Shown here: positions 10,292-38,269 of the stretch, piece by piece | How positions within the stretch are numbered: the stretch's first letter is position 1 | Layout: each line of letters starts with the position of its first letter | NCBI RefSeq assembly: GCF_001282785.1 | Contig: NZ_CVUA01000001.1 | Location: 1,364,001 to 1,428,000, forward strand | DNA from: Halolamina sediminis | GTDB lineage: Archaea > Halobacteriota > Halobacteria > Halobacteriales > Haloferacaceae | DNA: 64,000 nt | Reading direction: 5' to 3' | Notes under the pieces: generated by a model | What the model was told of the DNA's origin: nothing | What the model saw: the letters and a program-made list of their open reading frames with translations, nothing else | Databases searched by the model: none | Position numbers and translations under genes: made by a program

Positions 10292-10357
10292 ACCCGACAA
10301 CCGAACTCGATTCCTTTCTCGGATCGTCGCGCTGTACAGCGGAGGACGATGCTCCCG

Positions 10358-11476
10358 TCAGGTCCACTCCGGTTCCAGCGCGTCTAACAGCTTCTCGACC
10401 TCCCTATCACTGTTGACCGCGTGGACCGACACGCGGATCGCGTCCGGCGTCGGCAGGGCCCGAACGACGATCCCCTCCGACGCGAGTCGGTCGACCGTCG
10501 CTTCGGGGTCGTCCACGTCGATGCTTACGAGTCCTGACTCGGGATCCTGCGGACTGAGAAGCCGGTCGTCGGGGACGCCGTCGGCCAGCTTGCCGGCCAG
10601 CTCCTGAATCCGGTCGGCGATACGCTCGACGCCGACCTCGTCGATCGCCTCGATGGCCTCGGCCAGGGCGACGTGCGGTGCCGGGTTCGACGATCCGACT
10701 TCGAACCGTCGAGCGCCGGCCGCGAACTCGAAGGGATCCGCAGTCGGCGTTTCGACGCTCCGGTAGCCAACCGTGGTGGGCGCGAGAGAGTCGGCGACTC
10801 GGCGGTCGACGTAGAGGAAGCCACCGCCCCACAGTCCCAGCAGCCACTTGTGGCCTGCCGCCGCGACCGCGTCCGCACCCCACTCCTCGACGTCCATCGG
10901 GAGCTGTCCCGGCACTTGGACTGCGTCGACGAGCGTGAACGCGCCGGCTTCGTGGGCGATGTCGGCGAGCTCAGCGACGGGTAACCGGGTGCCGTGGGTC
11001 CACGTCACGGCGCTGAAACAGGCCAACTTCGCGCCGTCGACGGCCTCGGCGAAGGCGTCGAGATCGACGCGACCGTTCTCGGTTTCGACCACGCGAACCT
11101 CGACGCCCTTCTGTTTCAGGCGTTGCCACGGGAGCGTCCCGGCCGGGTGCTCGAGATCGGTCCGAACGACGATATCACCGGATTCCCAGTCGATCGCGTT
11201 CGCGACGGCGTTGATGCCCGCGGTCGTGCTCTCGGTGAGCGCGATCTCGTCGTCGGCGGCGCCGACGAAGTTGGCGACGCGCGCCCGCACACGATCGTAC
11301 GTGTCGAACGCCACCTCGTAGGGATCGTTTCGACTACTCGTCTCGTACTCGTGTGACCGCACGAACTCGTCTGCGGCCTCGACGACGTACCGTGGACTCG
11401 GCCCGTGGGCGCCGAAGTTCAGATAGACGTCCTCGTGCAGGGCGGGCGTGTCGGCGCGGAGTTCTGTTGGGGTCAT
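10358..11476 (-). CDS. Class V aminotransferase (cysteine-desulfurase superfamily) without the desulfurase cysteine loop
   Basis: A 372-residue PLP enzyme. The PLP lysine is in AGHKWLLG (Lys210) and the ring-stacking/aspartate motif is LVDAVQ (Asp184). The region where SufS/IscS-type desulfurases have their catalytic cysteine has only Ser and Asp (LLSPQDPESGLVSI). It is therefore closer to isopenicillin-N epimerase or selenocysteine-lyase-like members. It starts 7 nt downstream of a thioredoxin gene and is clearly co-transcribed with it from a motif-bearing promoter. Its substrate is unknown; a sulfur-containing amino acid is plausible from context. Confidence 0.85.
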   Translation of the reverse strand: MTPTELRADTPALHEDVYLNFGAHGPSPRYVVEAADEFVRSHEYETSSRNDPYEVAFDTYDRVRARVANFVGAADDEIALTESTTAGINAVANAIDWESGDIVVRTDLEHPAGTLPWQRLKQKGVEVRVVETENGRVDLDAFAEAVDGAKLACFSAVTWTHGTRLPVAELADIAHEAGAFTLVDAVQVPGQLPMDVEEWGADAVAAAGHKWLLGLWGGGFLYVDRRVADSLAPTTVGYRSVETPTADPFEFAAGARRFEVGSSNPAPHVALAEAIEAIDEVGVERIADRIQELAGKLADGVPDDRLLSPQDPESGLVSIDVDDPEATVDRLASEGIVVRALPTPDAIRVSVHAVNSDREVEKLLDALEPEWT

Positions 11477-31301: not shown

Positions 31302-32168
31302 CTACCCGTCCAGCGCCCCCATCCGCCGGATCCCCGGCTCGTCGAGCCGGAACGAGCAGCCGACGTGGGGCACTTCCAGCACTCGCGGGTAGGGGAACGA
31401 GGCGGCGTGTTCGTGGAGCACTTTTGGATCGGCACCGACGCCCTGCCACATGTCGTGGTGGGTCGGGAGCAGCCGGTCGAGTTCGAGTTGGTTCGCGGCC
31501 TCGATCACCTGATTTTCGTCCATGTACCACCGCGTTCGCTCCCCGCGGCCGAGATCGTGCTTGTAGATCTCCCCGACGGAACCGAACGCCAGCGCGCCGA
31601 CGGAGACGTCGAACTCCGCGGCGATCTCGGGGAACGCGTCGGGTGCGGGCCGGCTGTCGCCGGCGTGGACGAACGTCCCCGACTCGTGTTCGACGACGTA
31701 GCTCACGGGCTCGATCGCGTCGGGATCGTTCGCCCCGCGGACGTGGACGGTGAAGTCGCCGACGTCGAACGTCTCGCCCGCGGCGATCACGTTTCGACGA
31801 TCCTCCGGAGCGTCGAGGTCGGCGTCGTAGTCCGGCGACTCGTAGGACGCCGCGGGCGCGTAGAGGTCGGCGCCGAGGTCGTTCACCAGTGGGCCGTACG
31901 ACGGCGGGTGCATGTGGTCGATGTGTTCGTGGCTGACGAGGACGGCGTCGCAGTCAGTGGCGTCGGTGGGGTCGATCGGGACGGGAATCATGCGGACGAT
32001 GTTCGGCGGGTCGCCGTCGCCGAAGTACGGGTCGACGTAGATCGTCGTCGACGCCGAGCGCAGCACGAACCCGTTACAGCCGAGGTACCAGCCGACGACG
32101 CCGTCGCCGGGATCGGCCGCCTCGACCTCCTCGCGTACGAACCAGTCGCCCCACGTCGAGTGAACCAT
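31302..32168 (-). CDS. Metallo-beta-lactamase-fold hydrolase (UlaG-like), candidate pentonolactonase
   Basis: A 288-residue MBL-fold protein with metal motif SHEHIDHMH (His-x-His-x-Asp-His), the aspartate site FVHAGDSR and a C-terminal His in LPTHHDMW. UlaG-type members open lactones or related rings. It is encoded between the dehydratase and the sugar dehydrogenase of the pentose pathway, where a lactonase is needed to open the aldonolactone. The assignment is by position; direct substrate evidence is absent. Confidence 0.78.
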   Translation of the reverse strand: MVHSTWGDWFVREEVEAADPGDGVVGWYLGCNGFVLRSASTTIYVDPYFGDGDPPNIVRMIPVPIDPTDATDCDAVLVSHEHIDHMHPPSYGPLVNDLGADLYAPAASYESPDYDADLDAPEDRRNVIAAGETFDVGDFTVHVRGANDPDAIEPVSYVVEHESGTFVHAGDSRPAPDAFPEIAAEFDVSVGALAFGSVGEIYKHDLGRGERTRWYMDENQVIEAANQLELDRLLPTHHDMWQGVGADPKVLHEHAASFPYPRVLEVPHVGCSFRLDEPGIRRMGALDG

Positions 32169-32248
32169 GGCCGCGTGGTTCGGCGGGGGAGGGCAAAGCG
32201 TTGGCGCCGCAGGGGAACAGCCAACTGACCTGCGGTCGCCGACGCGAC

Positions 32249-33328
32249 TCAGAGCTCCACAGTTTCGCCCGTCTCGCTGGCCTCGTACACCGCCTTGATC
32301 GCCCGAATATCGGCCAGCCCGTGCTCGCCGTCCGGGTGAGGGTCCTCGCCGGTCAGCACGCAGTGCGAGAAGTACTCGAACTCCTCCTCCATCTGGTCGG
32401 CCTGCTCGAACGCGACGTCGAAGCTGGTGTCGCCGCGCTCGATCGTGAGCGCGCGGTCGTCCCAGGGGTAGAACGCCGGCTCGATCCGGACCCGCCCCTC
32501 GGTGCCCAGCACCTCGATGTGGCTCGCCATGTGGGCGTTCTGGCTGGCGGTACAGACCGCGAACGTGTGGCCCGGGAAGTCGAGTTGGAACGCGGCGTGC
32601 TCGTCCGGCACGTCGTCGAACTCGGGGGTCACGGACGCGACGGTGCCGCGAACGCGCTCGGGGTCGGCGCCGAGCAGGTATCGCGCGGTGTTCAGCGGGT
32701 AGAGCCCGATGTCCATCACCGCACAGCCGCCGGAGAGCTCGCCGTCCAGCCGCCACTGGTCGGGGTCGGGGACGAGATCGAGGATCGGCTCGGTCATGTT
32801 CCCGTTGACGAAGATCGGTTCGCCGATGAGGCCGTCGTCGACGAACTCCTTCGCCCGCCGGACTGCGGGCTCGGTCTGCATCCGGTAGGCGATCATCAGC
32901 GTCGCGTCGTTCTCCTCGACGACCTCGACCATCCGTTCAGCGCGCTCGATCGTCGCCTCCATCGGCTTCTCACAGAGGATCGCCTTGTGGAGTTCGGCGG
33001 CCGTCTCGACGAAGGGCAGGTGAAGGGCGTTCGGTGTCACGACGTACACCGCGTCGTAGGCGTCGCTCGCTTCCCCGTCGTGGAACGCGTCGTAGCTGAT
33101 CGCGTGCTCGACGGTCTCGACGTCGGCCGCCACGTCGGCGGCCTTCTCTGGGTCGCCGCTGACGAGGACGGTCGTCTCACACAGTTCGGCGTTCGCGACC
33201 GCGGGCATCGCCTGCTCGCGGGTCCACCAGCCGACGCCGACCATCGCGAAGCGAACGGGGTCGTCGGTCGCCTCCAGTTCCTGCCAATCCCGCCGGTCGA
33301 ACGACTCGGCGAGCGTCTCGATATCCAT
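32249..33328 (-). CDS. gfo6: Gfo/Idh/MocA oxidoreductase, D-xylose 1-dehydrogenase type
   Basis: A 359-residue NAD(P)-dependent sugar dehydrogenase. The Rossmann motif is in RFAMVGVGWWTREQAMPA and the catalytic CEKPM (Lys) is near residue 128; YPLNTARYLLGADP is also conserved. The N-terminal region FDRRDWQELEATDDPVRFAM closely resembles the haloarchaeal Gfo6 xylose dehydrogenase as I remember it. Oxidises D-xylose to xylonolactone at the head of the oxidative pathway. ATG at 33328, with the T-tract terminator of the preceding gene just upstream. Confidence 0.88.
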   Translation of the reverse strand: MDIETLAESFDRRDWQELEATDDPVRFAMVGVGWWTREQAMPAVANAELCETTVLVSGDPEKAADVAADVETVEHAISYDAFHDGEASDAYDAVYVVTPNALHLPFVETAAELHKAILCEKPMEATIERAERMVEVVEENDATLMIAYRMQTEPAVRRAKEFVDDGLIGEPIFVNGNMTEPILDLVPDPDQWRLDGELSGGCAVMDIGLYPLNTARYLLGADPERVRGTVASVTPEFDDVPDEHAAFQLDFPGHTFAVCTASQNAHMASHIEVLGTEGRVRIEPAFYPWDDRALTIERGDTSFDVAFEQADQMEEEFEYFSHCVLTGEDPHPDGEHGLADIRAIKAVYEASETGETVEL

Positions 33329-33397: not shown

Positions 33398-34834
33398 TCA
33401 GTAGCTGTCGTACACCGTCTTCGAGATGGTGTAGAAGTCGAGCCCGGCCTCGCCCTGCTCGCGGAACGTCTCGCTGGAGGAGGCCTTCATCCCGCCGAAG
33501 GGGACGTGGAGTTCGACGCCGGTCGTCTGCTGATTGACTTTCACCACGCCGGCATCGATGTCGTCGACGAAGCTGTTGGCCTCGGTGTGATCGTTCGTGA
33601 CGATGCCCGCCGAGAGCCCGTACTCCACGTCGTTGGCGGCCGCGAGCGCTTCGTCGTAGCCGCTCACGGGGATCACCGACAGCACCGGCCCGAAGATCTC
33701 CTCCTGGGCGAGTCGGCTGTCGTTGTCGACGTCGGCGAACACCGTCGGCTCGACGAAGTACCCCTTGCGGTCGAGCGCGTCGCCGCCGGTCTCGAGGCTC
33801 GCACCTTCCTCCTGCCCGACCTCGACGTACTCGAGCGTGCTTTCGAGCTCGTCCATGCTGACCTGCGGGCCCATGTCGCCGCCTTCGAGCCCGTTGCCGG
33901 GCTTGATCCCCTCGGCCTGCTCGACGATCGCGTCGACGAACTCGTCGTACACGTCCTCGTAGACGATCGCCCGCGAGCAGGCGGTACAGGCCTGTCCCGT
34001 CACGCCGAAGGCGCCCCAAGAGACGATCTTGGCGGCCTTCTCCACGTCAGCCGAGTCCGAGACGACGGTGGGGTTTTTCCCGCCCATCTCCAATTGGACG
34101 CGCTTGCCGTCCTCGGTCGCGGTGTCGTAGACAATGTCGCCAACTGCGGCGCTGCCGGTGAATGAGACGGCGTCGACGGCCTCGTGGCCGGCGACCACGT
34201 CGCCGACCTCGCTGCCGGGCCCGGTGACGACGTTGAGCGCGCCGTCGGGGAGGCCGGCCTCGTCGAGCGCCGCGGCGATCTCGTGGGTCGGGCCGGGCGC
34301 GAGCGTCGCGGGCTTGATCACCGCTGTCGTGCCGGCCGCCAGCGCGGGCGCGATCTTCCACGCCGGGATCGCGATCGGGTAGTTCCACGGCGTGATCAGG
34401 CCGGCGACGCCGACCGGCTCCTGTTTGGTTCGAAGCACCGTGTCGCCGCCGCTGGCGCTTTTCACCTCGCCGCCGATGTCGCGGGCCTTCGAGCCGTAGT
34501 AGTCGAAGATGTCGATGGCGCGCTGGACCTCGCCGCCGGCCTCGGCCTCGGTCTTCCCCTCCTCGCGGACCAGCAGTTCGGTCAGTTCATCCTTCTTGTC
34601 GGCCAGAATCCCGCTCGCCCGCGAGAGGATCCGTCCCCGTTTCGGGGCGGGCGTGTTGCTCCACTCGTCGGTTGCCGCGGCTGCGGCCTCGACCGCGCGT
34701 TCGGCGTCCGCCGCGCTGGACTTGGGGTAGGTGCCGACGACCTCGTCCGGGTTGGCGGGGTCGTGTGTATCGAACGTGTCGCCGCTCTCGGCGTCGATCC
34801 ACTCGCCGTCGATGAGATTCGATCTGCTCGCCAT
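33398..34834 (-). CDS. xacF: Aldehyde dehydrogenase, 2-oxoglutarate semialdehyde type
   Basis: A 478-residue NAD(P)-dependent aldehyde dehydrogenase. The cofactor motif is FTGSAAVGD, the general base Glu is in LEMGGKNP and the catalytic Cys is in TGQACTACSR. Family length is typical. In the pentose pathway it oxidises 2-oxoglutarate semialdehyde to 2-oxoglutarate, the last step. Transcribed divergently from the FAH-family dehydratase gene. Substrate assigned from cluster context. Confidence 0.87.
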   Translation of the reverse strand: MASRSNLIDGEWIDAESGDTFDTHDPANPDEVVGTYPKSSAADAERAVEAAAAATDEWSNTPAPKRGRILSRASGILADKKDELTELLVREEGKTEAEAGGEVQRAIDIFDYYGSKARDIGGEVKSASGGDTVLRTKQEPVGVAGLITPWNYPIAIPAWKIAPALAAGTTAVIKPATLAPGPTHEIAAALDEAGLPDGALNVVTGPGSEVGDVVAGHEAVDAVSFTGSAAVGDIVYDTATEDGKRVQLEMGGKNPTVVSDSADVEKAAKIVSWGAFGVTGQACTACSRAIVYEDVYDEFVDAIVEQAEGIKPGNGLEGGDMGPQVSMDELESTLEYVEVGQEEGASLETGGDALDRKGYFVEPTVFADVDNDSRLAQEEIFGPVLSVIPVSGYDEALAAANDVEYGLSAGIVTNDHTEANSFVDDIDAGVVKVNQQTTGVELHVPFGGMKASSSETFREQGEAGLDFYTISKTVYDSY

Positions 34835-34922
34835 ACCCGTCCGTTGTAGCGGTCGGCGGATAACCCTTTACGCTGCGGCCCACCCCCGGAGATTTATGCC
34901 CCCCACGCGCCGCAGTCCCCGC

Positions 34923-35786
34923 ATGCGCTACTACCGCCACGAGCGCGACGGCGATGCCCACCTCCTCGCCGTCGCCGACGGCGAGGCTCGGGATCTGACG
35001 GCGATCAAACCCCGGCTGGGATCGTTCCGCGATCTCGCCGCGGCCGGAGACGTCGCGAACAGCGGCGTCGACGCGCTGGCCGCCGAGCTGTTCGCCGAGG
35101 CGCCTGTCGTCGAGTTCTCCGTCGTCGAGCTCGAACGCCCCGTCGCGCCCGGGGAGGTGTGGGCCGCCGGCGTCACCTACGAGATCAGCGAGCAGGCCCG
35201 CGAAGAGGAGAGCGGGATGGCCGACGTGTACCTCGACGTGTACGACGCCGAGCGCCCCGAGATCTTCTTCAAGGCCACGCCGAGCCGGACGGTCGGCCCC
35301 GGCGGCGCCATCGGCGTCCGCGGCGACTCCGACTGGAACGTCCCCGAGCCCGAACTGGGGCTCGTACTGTACGATGGCGAGATCGTCGGCTACACCGTCG
35401 GCAACGACGTGAGCAGCCGCGAGATCGAGGGGGCGAACCCACTCTACCTCCCGCAGGCGAAAGTGTACGACCGCTGCTGTTCGATCGGCCCCTGTGTCGT
35501 GGGCGCCGACAGCGTCCCGGATCCCCACGACCTCGGGATGTCGATGCGCATCGAGCGCGACGGCGAGACCGTCTACGACGACGCCACCTCGACCGCGGAG
35601 ATGGCCCGGAGCTGCGAGGAGCTCGCCGACTGCTGGCGGGCCCACAACGCGGTGCCGGAGCTGGGCGTGCTGCTCACCGGCACTTCGCTCGTCCCCGAGG
35701 ACGAGTTCACCCTCAGTCCCGGCGACACGGTCCGCATCGACATCGAGGGGATCGGGGAGCTCGTGAACCCCGTCATCGAGGTCTGA
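34923..35786 (+). CDS. xacE: FAH-family 2-keto-3-deoxypentonate dehydratase
   Basis: A 287-residue fumarylacetoacetate-hydrolase-fold protein with metal and active-site motifs GVTYEISEQAREEE, EPELGLVLYDGEIVGYT and GNDVSSREIEG. It matches the XacE-type enzyme that converts 2-keto-3-deoxyxylonate to 2-oxoglutarate semialdehyde. ATG at 34923 with TATA-like GATTTATGC about 30 nt upstream; the 88-nt gap to xacF probably holds promoters for both directions. Confidence 0.88.
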   Translation: MRYYRHERDGDAHLLAVADGEARDLTAIKPRLGSFRDLAAAGDVANSGVDALAAELFAEAPVVEFSVVELERPVAPGEVWAAGVTYEISEQAREEESGMADVYLDVYDAERPEIFFKATPSRTVGPGGAIGVRGDSDWNVPEPELGLVLYDGEIVGYTVGNDVSSREIEGANPLYLPQAKVYDRCCSIGPCVVGADSVPDPHDLGMSMRIERDGETVYDDATSTAEMARSCEELADCWRAHNAVPELGVLLTGTSLVPEDEFTLSPGDTVRIDIEGIGELVNPVIEV

Positions 35787-36034
35787 GCGTCGTGCTGGTG
35801 GGCGATTTCGACGAGGTCAGGAACGGAACTCGGCCACGGACGCGGACCGCCCCGTGTCACGCTCCGTGACTGGTCCGTCGGGTCCGCCAGTAGAGCGACT
35901 CCGGCCGTGGCCTCAGCCGATCGTCGGCGCTTCCGGCGGGATAGTTCACGGGGCGACGGAGTTCGTCACGCCGTGAGCCATCGTCAACGCGCTTATACTC
36001 CTCCGGTTCCCGCTTGGTGTCGTTCGGTTTCCAC

Positions 36035-37432
36035 ATGACGACGATCCTCGACACCGCGCGGCGGCGGGCGACGCTACTCGACTACCTGCGGGACGGCCCC
36101 CTGGACAAGCGTGATCTGCTTGATCGCGTCGCCGCATCCCGTTCGACGATCGACCGCGCGACCGAGGAGCTGCTCGACCGCGGGCTGGTGCGGGCGGTCG
36201 ACGGCGGGTACGAGGCCACGCTCGCGGGCGTGTTGGCGCTCGAACAGTCCCGGGCGTACGAGCGCGACGCCAACGCCATCGCGGCAGCCGCGCCGGCGCT
36301 GACGCCGCTGTGGAAGGAGTCCGAGGTCGACGTGACGTTCCTCCGGAACGCCGACGTCTCGCTGGCGGCCGACGACGACGTGGTCCGGCTCCTCGCGGAG
36401 CTCGGCTCGGCGATCCGCAACGCCGACGAGGTCCGAGGCGTGTTCCCCCAGATCGCTCGGCCGGAGCAGTTGGAGACGCTGTACACGCGGGCCAACGTCG
36501 ACGCCAATCTCGACCTCGTGTTCTCGGAGTCGCTGTTCGACACGCTGGCGTCGACGTTCCCGGGCTGGCTCCGCGGGGTCGTGCTCGCGGGGGCCGGCCG
36601 CGTCGCCGTCGGCCCGGTGCCGGAGTACGGACTCGTGGTCTGCCGCGCCGGCGACGACCGCGAGGCGTTCCTGCTCACGTACGACGACGGCCGGCTCCAC
36701 GGCGTGCTCCGGAACCACGGGGATGGGGCAGCGTGGGCCGACGAGCGGGTCGACACGCTCCGCGACGGCGCGACCGACCGGTCGGCGCGCATCCGGGCGC
36801 TCGACGCGGACCTGGGGTTCACGGGCGTCGGTGACGTGACGCCGCCGTTCGGCGGGGTGTCGGCGATCGCTGAAGGGGGTGTCGAGGAGCGGACCGAGGG
36901 CCTCCTCGCCGGTGGCTACGCCGTCGACGGCGGGAAGCTCCGAACCCCCGCCTTCGGTGCCGAGGGGGCGTGTACGGTGTCGTTCTGGATACAGCCGAAC
37001 GACCCCGACGGCGGCTGGCAGATACTCCTCAAGTGGGACTACGTCGCGATCGCGCTCCGGCGCGGGGAGCTCCACGGAATGGTGTACGATCCCGACCGCG
37101 AGGAGAGCCGCGCGTACACCGCGGTCCCTGTCGACAGGCTCGACACGGGGCGCTGGCAGCACGTCGCCTACACCTACGACGAGTCCCGCGCCCGGCTGTA
37201 CCTCGACGGTGAGCTCGTCGACGAGACCGAGGACGACTATCCGCTCCACATCGCCGAGATCGGAGCAGCGCTGGGGTACCACTACCGCGACAGGGACACC
37301 GGCGTCCACGAGCCGACGTACGACGGCCGACTGTACGACGCACGGCTCTACGACGTCACGCTCTCGCCCGAGGAGATCGAGGGCCTCGTAACCACGACGG
37401 GGCCGACTGCCGCCGCGTGGGACGCCGAGTGA
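36035..37432 (+). CDS. HTH regulator fused to a LamG/concanavalin-A-like lectin domain
   Basis: A 465-residue protein. Residues about 5-60 are a winged HTH (LLDYLRDGPLDKRDLLDRVAA, then SRSTIDRATEELLDRGLV). Residues about 75-255 resemble the sensor-like C-terminal region common in haloarchaeal regulators of this type. Residues about 290-455 form a LamG-like jelly roll (TVSFWIQPNDPDGGWQILLKW, WQHVAYTYDESRARLYLDGE, YDGRLYDARLYDVTLSPEEI). Lectin modules normally lie outside cells; on a DNA-binding protein with no signal peptide or membrane segment this must be cytoplasmic. It lies beside the pentose genes and may sense a sugar. Confidence 0.82.
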   Translation: MTTILDTARRRATLLDYLRDGPLDKRDLLDRVAASRSTIDRATEELLDRGLVRAVDGGYEATLAGVLALEQSRAYERDANAIAAAAPALTPLWKESEVDVTFLRNADVSLAADDDVVRLLAELGSAIRNADEVRGVFPQIARPEQLETLYTRANVDANLDLVFSESLFDTLASTFPGWLRGVVLAGAGRVAVGPVPEYGLVVCRAGDDREAFLLTYDDGRLHGVLRNHGDGAAWADERVDTLRDGATDRSARIRALDADLGFTGVGDVTPPFGGVSAIAEGGVEERTEGLLAGGYAVDGGKLRTPAFGAEGACTVSFWIQPNDPDGGWQILLKWDYVAIALRRGELHGMVYDPDREESRAYTAVPVDRLDTGRWQHVAYTYDESRARLYLDGELVDETEDDYPLHIAEIGAALGYHYRDRDTGVHEPTYDGRLYDARLYDVTLSPEEIEGLVTTTGPTAAAWDAE

Positions 37433-37435
37433 GGG

Positions 37436-38269
37436 CTATCCGCCAAGGAACCGCTGGGCACGCCTCGCGACGGCCGTTCGCAACGCCGACTCGTCGATCG
37501 CTCTTTCGCCGCCGAACAGGCGGCCGTGCTCCTCGCGATAGACGTCCTCCAGTAGTCGATCGCGAAGCGCGTCGACGGTCGGTGCCTGCCCGCGCTCACG
37601 GAGCCGCGTCGCGACGCGCTCGAACCGGCGATCCGTGGCCACCGCGGCCGCCAGCGAGTCGGCGTTCTCGGACTCTATCGGATTCTCGGGCGGTGTGGGA
37701 ATTTCGGAATTTTTGAGCAGTGCACGGCCGTCACGCTTGTCACAAATTAGGACGCCAGCAGCGGAGCCGTCGTACCACGCCGAGGCCGGGATCCGGTAGC
37801 TATCGGGGTCGAAGTCGCGGCTGTGGCGTTCGCGTTCGACCGCGTTGGAGGGATCGAGCCCGAGTCGGTCGAAGATGGCTTCGGCGTCGTCCGGCGGGCG
37901 GAACGCGTCGGCGTCGGCGTCGAACACGTCGATGCCGAGAAACGGCGGCAGCCGCCCCCAGTCGTAGTCGATCCGCTCGCGGTGGGTCGCCCAGCCGACG
38001 AAGGTGAGGCTGCTCGCGTCGTCGACGGCGCGCCGGAGCGCCGCGCGGTTCAGCCGCTCCCGGACGTGCCGGACCGCGCGCCGACACTGTCGCGGGATCG
38101 CATCGTCGTCGTGGTAGACGTGCTGCTGGCCGCCGAAACGGATCGCACCCGACGTCCGGAGCTGGAACCGGAGGAGCGACCCCTCGACCGCCTCCAGCAG
38201 CCAGAGGTGGCCCGCGAACTCGGGGGCGGCCTCGTCGCCGACGGTAGGGATGGGCGGGTACTCCTGCAC
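37436..38269 (-). CDS. RNA-ligase-family-like protein with altered nucleotidyl-lysine motif
   Basis: A 277-residue protein of the haloarchaeal RNA-ligase-like family: HLWLLEAVEGSLLRFQLR, GAIRFGG, TFVGWATHRERIDYDW, LPPFLGIDVFDAD, EAIFDRLGLDPSNA and EEHGRLFGG. In covalent nucleotidyltransferases the first motif is KxDG; here the aligned residues read AVEG, so the lysine appears replaced by alanine (residue 27) and the Asp by Glu. I chose the GTG at 38269, giving VQEYPPIP, a common family N-terminus. Activity may be lost or changed. Family call from memory of haloarchaeal homologues. Confidence 0.65.
   Translation of the reverse strand: MQEYPPIPTVGDEAAPEFAGHLWLLEAVEGSLLRFQLRTSGAIRFGGQQHVYHDDDAIPRQCRRAVRHVRERLNRAALRRAVDDASSLTFVGWATHRERIDYDWGRLPPFLGIDVFDADADAFRPPDDAEAIFDRLGLDPSNAVERERHSRDFDPDSYRIPASAWYDGSAAGVLICDKRDGRALLKNSEIPTPPENPIESENADSLAAAVATDRRFERVATRLRERGQAPTVDALRDRLLEDVYREEHGRLFGGERAIDESALRTAVARRAQRFLGG

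Follow-up and report, generated by a model that had tools for sequence, protein, structure and literature searches.

FilR1 of Methanosaeta harundinacea, which gave its name to the FilR1_middle Pfam domain, is part of the FilI/FilR two-component system (PMC3991700). TrmB consists of a winged helix-turn-helix (wHTH), an effector part and a C-terminal beta subdomain which contacts the sugar, and the palindromic operators of TrmB, TrmBL1 and Tgr lie near the BRE/TATA elements; for TrmBL1 and Tgr a site upstream of the TATA element goes with activation (PMC4158304). XacR of Haloferax volcanii is of the IclR type and is required for the activation of xacE (PMC10448506). The haloarchaeal global regulator HFX_2341 was also considered as a relative of the protein described here and rejected, since it is Csa3a-like and unrelated (PMC11434293). 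Among the papers searched, none dealt with an HTH-LamG protein in archaea or with HVO_A0261.

Here we describe a regulator of Halolamina sediminis, encoded in a window of 64,000 nucleotides (the whole stretch of DNA analysed) from a genome of 2.84 Mb. It has the wHTH and FilR1_middle domain in common with the haloarchaeal HVO_A0261/FilR1_middle regulators that lack LamG, at 27-35% identity, and unlike those it continues after the FilR1 domain with a LamG domain of 170 residues. Its likeness to the Methanosaeta protein is taken from the domain name, and that to the sugar-responsive TrmB, TrmBL1 and Tgr is an analogy in the way of working, LamG being a different domain family. Unlike in the FilI/FilR system, no kinase gene is seen next to the window regulator. 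The evidence presented below supports a cytosolic LamG regulator that is a variant of the known HVO_A0261/FilR1 family.

Domain architecture and structure

The gene forms one open frame for a protein of 465 aa, and the ATG start of its orthologues is found at the matching position, give or take one codon (Table 1). In Pfam the HVO_A0261_N winged HTH reached 60.1 bits against a curated cut-off of 35, FilR1_middle 48.5 bits against 27, and Laminin_G_3, of the ConA-like lectin/glucanase superfamily, 64.8 bits against 27.6 (E 1.3e-17), the last covering positions 10-150 of the 151 in the profile. Neither a signal peptide nor a membrane helix is apparent: hydropathy in 19-residue windows peaks at 1.08, and it stays below 0 in those windows that begin within the first 40 residues. 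The isoelectric point of 4.5 is usual for a haloarchaeal cytosolic protein. The initial annotation had read the gene as a winged HTH, a middle region and a C-terminal LamG-like domain without signal peptide; with three Pfam domains above cut-off this reading is borne out, and the domain search it proposed gives a sequence-profile match to LamG over nearly the whole profile.

Table 1. Positions in the window of the regulator gene, its domains, its upstream elements and neighbouring pentose genes.
Feature	Position	Strand	Basis
D-xylose 1-dehydrogenase Gfo6	32249..33328	-	NCBIfam NF041392 above cut-off
2,5-dioxovalerate (ketoglutarate semialdehyde) dehydrogenase, KGSADH	33398..34834	-	NCBIfam NF052305 above cut-off
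FAH-family protein (xacE-like)	34923..35786	+	Function assigned from context
Second conserved upstream element TGGTCCGTCGG	35871..35881		Invariant in six Halolamina
Palindrome GCGACGGA-G-TTCGTCAC, putative operator	35953..35969		Conserved in Halolamina
Candidate TATA element (in CTTATA)	35993..35997	+	TTAT invariant in six Halolamina; putative promoter role
wHTH-FilR1_middle-LamG regulator gene	36035..37432	+	Open frame, Pfam, orthologues
HVO_A0261_N winged HTH, residues 7-77	36053..36265	+	Pfam E 1.9e-16
FilR1_middle domain, residues 119-244	36389..36766	+	Pfam E 1.1e-12
Variable linker, residues 246-289	36770..36901	+	42-64% identity
LamG/ConA-like domain, residues 290-456 (Pfam match 303-448)	36902..37402	+	Pfam, alignments, model

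The recognition helix carries the motif ASRSTIDRA, of which R36, T38 and R41 are invariant across 26 homologues. The TrmB HTH (PF01978) scored 16.9 bits against a cut-off of 25.6 (E 0.0057), and Pfam gave no match to the TrmB effector domain or to the IclR effector domain IclR_C. The window protein therefore differs from the IclR-type XacR, as had been supposed at the outset, even if both are linked in discussion to the oxidative pentose genes; the single IclR_C gene of the window genome lies 175 kb from the regulator.

For the last 190 residues AlphaFold2, given a 50-row alignment, produced a 12-strand all-beta model (mean pLDDT 75, pTM 0.78). The full-length AlphaFold model, made with four orthologues, was too poor to serve as a guide to domain arrangement (pLDDT 43) and was set aside. 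By sequence profile the nearest solved chains of the LamG part are an S-layer-domain protein (4qvs), an extracellular arabinanase and thrombospondin-1, while a broader profile reaches neurexins and pentraxins among the solved structures. The family has its own conserved LamG stretches, KWD, ALRR and GYHYxxRDxGVHxP, which in the alignments are kept in the copy from another family (G396) and mostly in that from another genus of the same family (G014).

LamG domains are normally located outside cells. For comparison we used 40 other frames with weaker LamG matches, taken from the order and including one of the window genome. All 40 matched Laminin_G_3, as does the window regulator, and five are GH2 glycosidases; no HTH family occurred among the 25 listed of the 34 families matched by these frames, so that a lone HTH match may have escaped notice. 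Many of them start, as judged by eye, with twin-arginine-, lipoprotein- or Sec-like N-termini, in contrast to the regulator with its HTH and no signal peptide, so that the unusual cytosolic placement of a LamG domain pointed out in the initial annotation stands. Viral sequences gave one weak match to the LamG profile and none to the full protein, and phage records gave none. A match on a Burkholderia plasmid was discarded: the LamG-like protein encoded there is 769 aa long and matches no regulator family in NCBIfam.

Distribution, origin and selection

Full-length orthologues of about 71% identity are encoded by five other Halolamina genomes (G001, G002, G003, G004 and G006), the named relatives with such a 71% identical protein being H. 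rubra, H. pelagica and H. salifodinae; the gene is absent from G005 of the same genus. G396 holds a full-length orthologue of 472 aa in a single frame with 48% identity, and in G014 the HTH-FilR1 and LamG halves lie in different frames; Laminin_G_3 is matched in both copies. A survey of HTH-LamG fusions, also proposed with the initial annotation, thus arrives at strong orthologues in 8 genomes only, namely six Halolamina, G014 and G396, with no further strong LamG orthologue in the sets searched, which overlap and comprise the family (170 genomes), the order (392, a sample), the family of G396 (125) and the phylum (393, a sample). Homologues of the HTH-FilR1 part are common (129 of 147 relatives), and the window genome has one FilR1 protein in total, which is the LamG-bearing regulator. 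The architecture is not due to chance, as the complete fusion stands in a single frame in G396 and in six Halolamina genomes. When a tree was built from the HTH-FilR1 part, the six rows with LamG together formed one side of a branch (support 100/99), which was recovered in 100% of 200 bootstrap trees. Such a single clade fits one fusion followed by loss or transfer, and from the sequences the LamG fusion probably arose once.

The HTH and LamG are the best-conserved parts of the regulator. Between the window protein and its Halolamina orthologues identity amounts to 73-81% in the HTH, 62-72% in the FilR1 domain and 75-78% in LamG, and to 42-64% in the linker. Within LamG, agreement with the window copy is 86-89% at the first codon position, 85-89% at the second and 60-69% at the third. 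Domain identity, this codon-position bias and the retained family-specific stretches together make LamG likely a working part. The HTH-LamG fusion is genuine, rare and maintained by selection.

In the G014 copy (L039, 10442-11910) the frame shifts inside the GC-rich linker. Its HTH frame continues without a stop, which speaks more for an indel, be it real or an artefact of assembly, than for a split by design; the LamG frame is still open and 48% identical.

The upstream region and a candidate operator

The longest invariant runs in the six aligned Halolamina upstream regions are TGGTCCGTCGG and AGTTCGTCAC; when the columns of the alignment were shuffled, an invariant run of at least 10 columns appeared in 0.035% of cases. 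AGTTCGTCAC is half of a 17-bp palindrome (8+1+8) with the Halolamina form GTGRCGAA-N-TTCGTCAC, and TGGTCCGTCGG lies 90-96 bp upstream of the palindrome half-site. The palindrome is present at the regulator promoter in all six LamG-bearing Halolamina, its arms pairing at 8/8 positions in G006, 7/8 in G001, G002 and G004, 6/8 in the window and 5/8 in G003; the locus of G005, which has no regulator, lacks it even when two mismatches are allowed. It is placed about 24 bp upstream of the conserved TTAT of the candidate TATA element, which in turn lies about 40 bp before the start codon.

When whole genomes were scanned with at most two mismatches, each Halolamina genome had 3-9 places. The only perfect place is the regulator promoter of G006, and in G001, G002 and G004 that promoter is the sole place with one mismatch. 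The recurring matches that were read as a possible second conserved target were rejected: those at L248, L249 and L251 fall inside a gene for a small zinc-ribbon-like protein, and that at L252 is likewise coding. The match at L250 is at a promoter, in G002 only.

A conserved palindrome upstream of the TATA element, positioned as in TrmBL1 and Tgr activation, leads us to propose autoregulation, and on the sequence evidence the regulator is probably autoregulated. Another protein may bind the palindrome, since a search upstream of the regulator genes of G396 and G014 did not find it despite their similar recognition helices, and it may thus belong to another regulator. The imperfect site of the window, and the still weaker one of G003, also count against autoregulation. 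The G014 copy is preceded (L039, about 10340-10400) by an inverted repeat that pairs at 11 of 12 positions, CCACGCCGTGAG-CAGTCAC-CTCACCGCGTGG, and that differs from the Halolamina palindrome.

Proposed mechanism and possible role of LamG

The reading we prefer, and to which we would give about an even chance, is that of a cytosolic one-component HVO_A0261/FilR1 regulator which probably gained LamG once, has kept it under selection, senses a ligand or partner and regulates itself. The wHTH would bind DNA as a dimer at palindromes, for instance at the one that precedes its own TATA element; this binding would regulate its own gene, possibly as an activator given the position of the site. LamG, alone or with the FilR1 domain, would bind either a protein partner or a ligand such as a glycan, a sugar or some other molecule, and this would change DNA binding. 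LamG could in this way be the effector-binding part, by analogy with the C-terminal beta subdomain of TrmB, but the protein falls outside the TrmB family by its profile scores and the analogy gives no hint of the ligand.

Many LamG/ConA-like domains are glycan binders. A narrower version, in which LamG was recruited from secreted proteins as a cytosolic sensor of intracellular glycans or glycosylated molecules, is put forward tentatively; candidate signals would be S-layer or lipid glycosylation intermediates and imported oligosaccharides.

The main rival to effector sensing is protein docking. Here LamG would serve for protein-protein contact or oligomerisation and tether the regulator to a partner, with sensing left to the FilR1 domain. 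We regard this as possible, though rather improbable. Protein binding or oligomerisation is frequent among LamG and pentraxin-type domains, the stretches KWD, ALRR and GYHYxxRDxGVHxP suit an interface as well as a binding pocket, and the next gene in G396, 82 bp downstream of the regulator copy on the same strand, encodes a PAS histidine kinase. Against docking, no partner gene is conserved beside the regulator across three genera.

The pentose neighbourhood

As the initial annotation stated, the regulator stands beside oxidative pentose genes: xylose dehydrogenase and 2,5-dioxovalerate dehydrogenase are above their NCBIfam cut-offs, an enolase-superfamily sugar-acid dehydratase is also among the neighbours, and the FAH-family protein is, from its context, likely a 2-keto-3-deoxypentonate dehydratase. 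Control of this cluster by the regulator, as was then supposed, is not supported, and we have dropped the reading as a pentose-cluster regulator on the grounds of linkage, G005 and promoter motifs. We consider a cytosolic sensor of pentose or xylo-oligosaccharides governing the adjacent genes unlikely. Its attraction comes from the glycan binding of many LamG/ConA-like domains, from the extracellular arabinanase among the nearest PDB relatives by profile, and from the position of the regulator on the xacE side of the pentose cluster in 6/6 LamG-bearing Halolamina, directly adjacent in four. However, in G001 and G004 3-4 kb of other genes intervene between regulator and xacE (in both, one for a histidine phosphatase and a large one that matches no Pfam family; in G001 an SdpI-like gene as well), and the regulator copies of G014 and G396 are away from pentose genes, the xylose dehydrogenases being located elsewhere. 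G005 keeps the pentose genes without the regulator (identities of 90% for xacE, 93% for KGSADH, 95% for xylose dehydrogenase and 98% for the dehydratase), in the order moaC, nnr, a short conserved gene, an SdpI-like gene, xacE and the rest of the pentose genes. Moreover, the divergent xacE/KGSADH promoter of Halolamina does not have the palindrome of the regulator promoter, so that the linkage is broken and no shared operator motif is seen. The broken linkage argues against a dedicated pentose regulator, although in some species the protein could still act as such; the pentose genes count at most as a single potential target.

Several observations were made on the genes around. The divergent KGSADH/xacE promoter (34840-34925) has conserved elements of its own in six Halolamina, GTTG, GGT, ATAA and CTTTA, where the true pentose regulator possibly binds. 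In G005 (L253, 4588-5241) the regulator is replaced by an SdpI/DUF1648 membrane protein, which in G001 (L034, 12186-12860) is the divergent neighbour of the regulator. The gene stretch at 37436-38200 (minus strand), without Pfam or NCBIfam match, is conserved beside nnr/moaC in 7/7 Halolamina. An MBL-fold (Lactamase_B_2) protein is encoded at 31302-32234 (minus strand; the listed open reading frame 31302-32756 is probably over-long), and its gene lies between xylose dehydrogenase and the sugar-acid dehydratase in 6 of the 7 Halolamina read, G005 included, with the G001 stretch covered in part. An SMP-30/SGL lactonase was not found in the nine genomes searched, and the MBL-fold protein is a candidate non-orthologous pentonolactonase.

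That the LamG tail is a fusion relic without present role, as the frameshift in the G014 linker and the lack of the gene in G005 might suggest, is highly improbable, given that conservation is higher in LamG than in the FilR1 domain, that codon position 3 varies most, and that the G014 LamG frame remains open at 48% identity.

Implications

A selected LamG-HTH fusion of probably single origin would show that the LamG fold can be used inside the cell, as a sensor or as a docking module. It would also offer a first approach, by way of a ligand, to the large and almost uncharacterised HVO_A0261/FilR1 family, and the conserved palindrome puts the DNA side within direct experimental reach.
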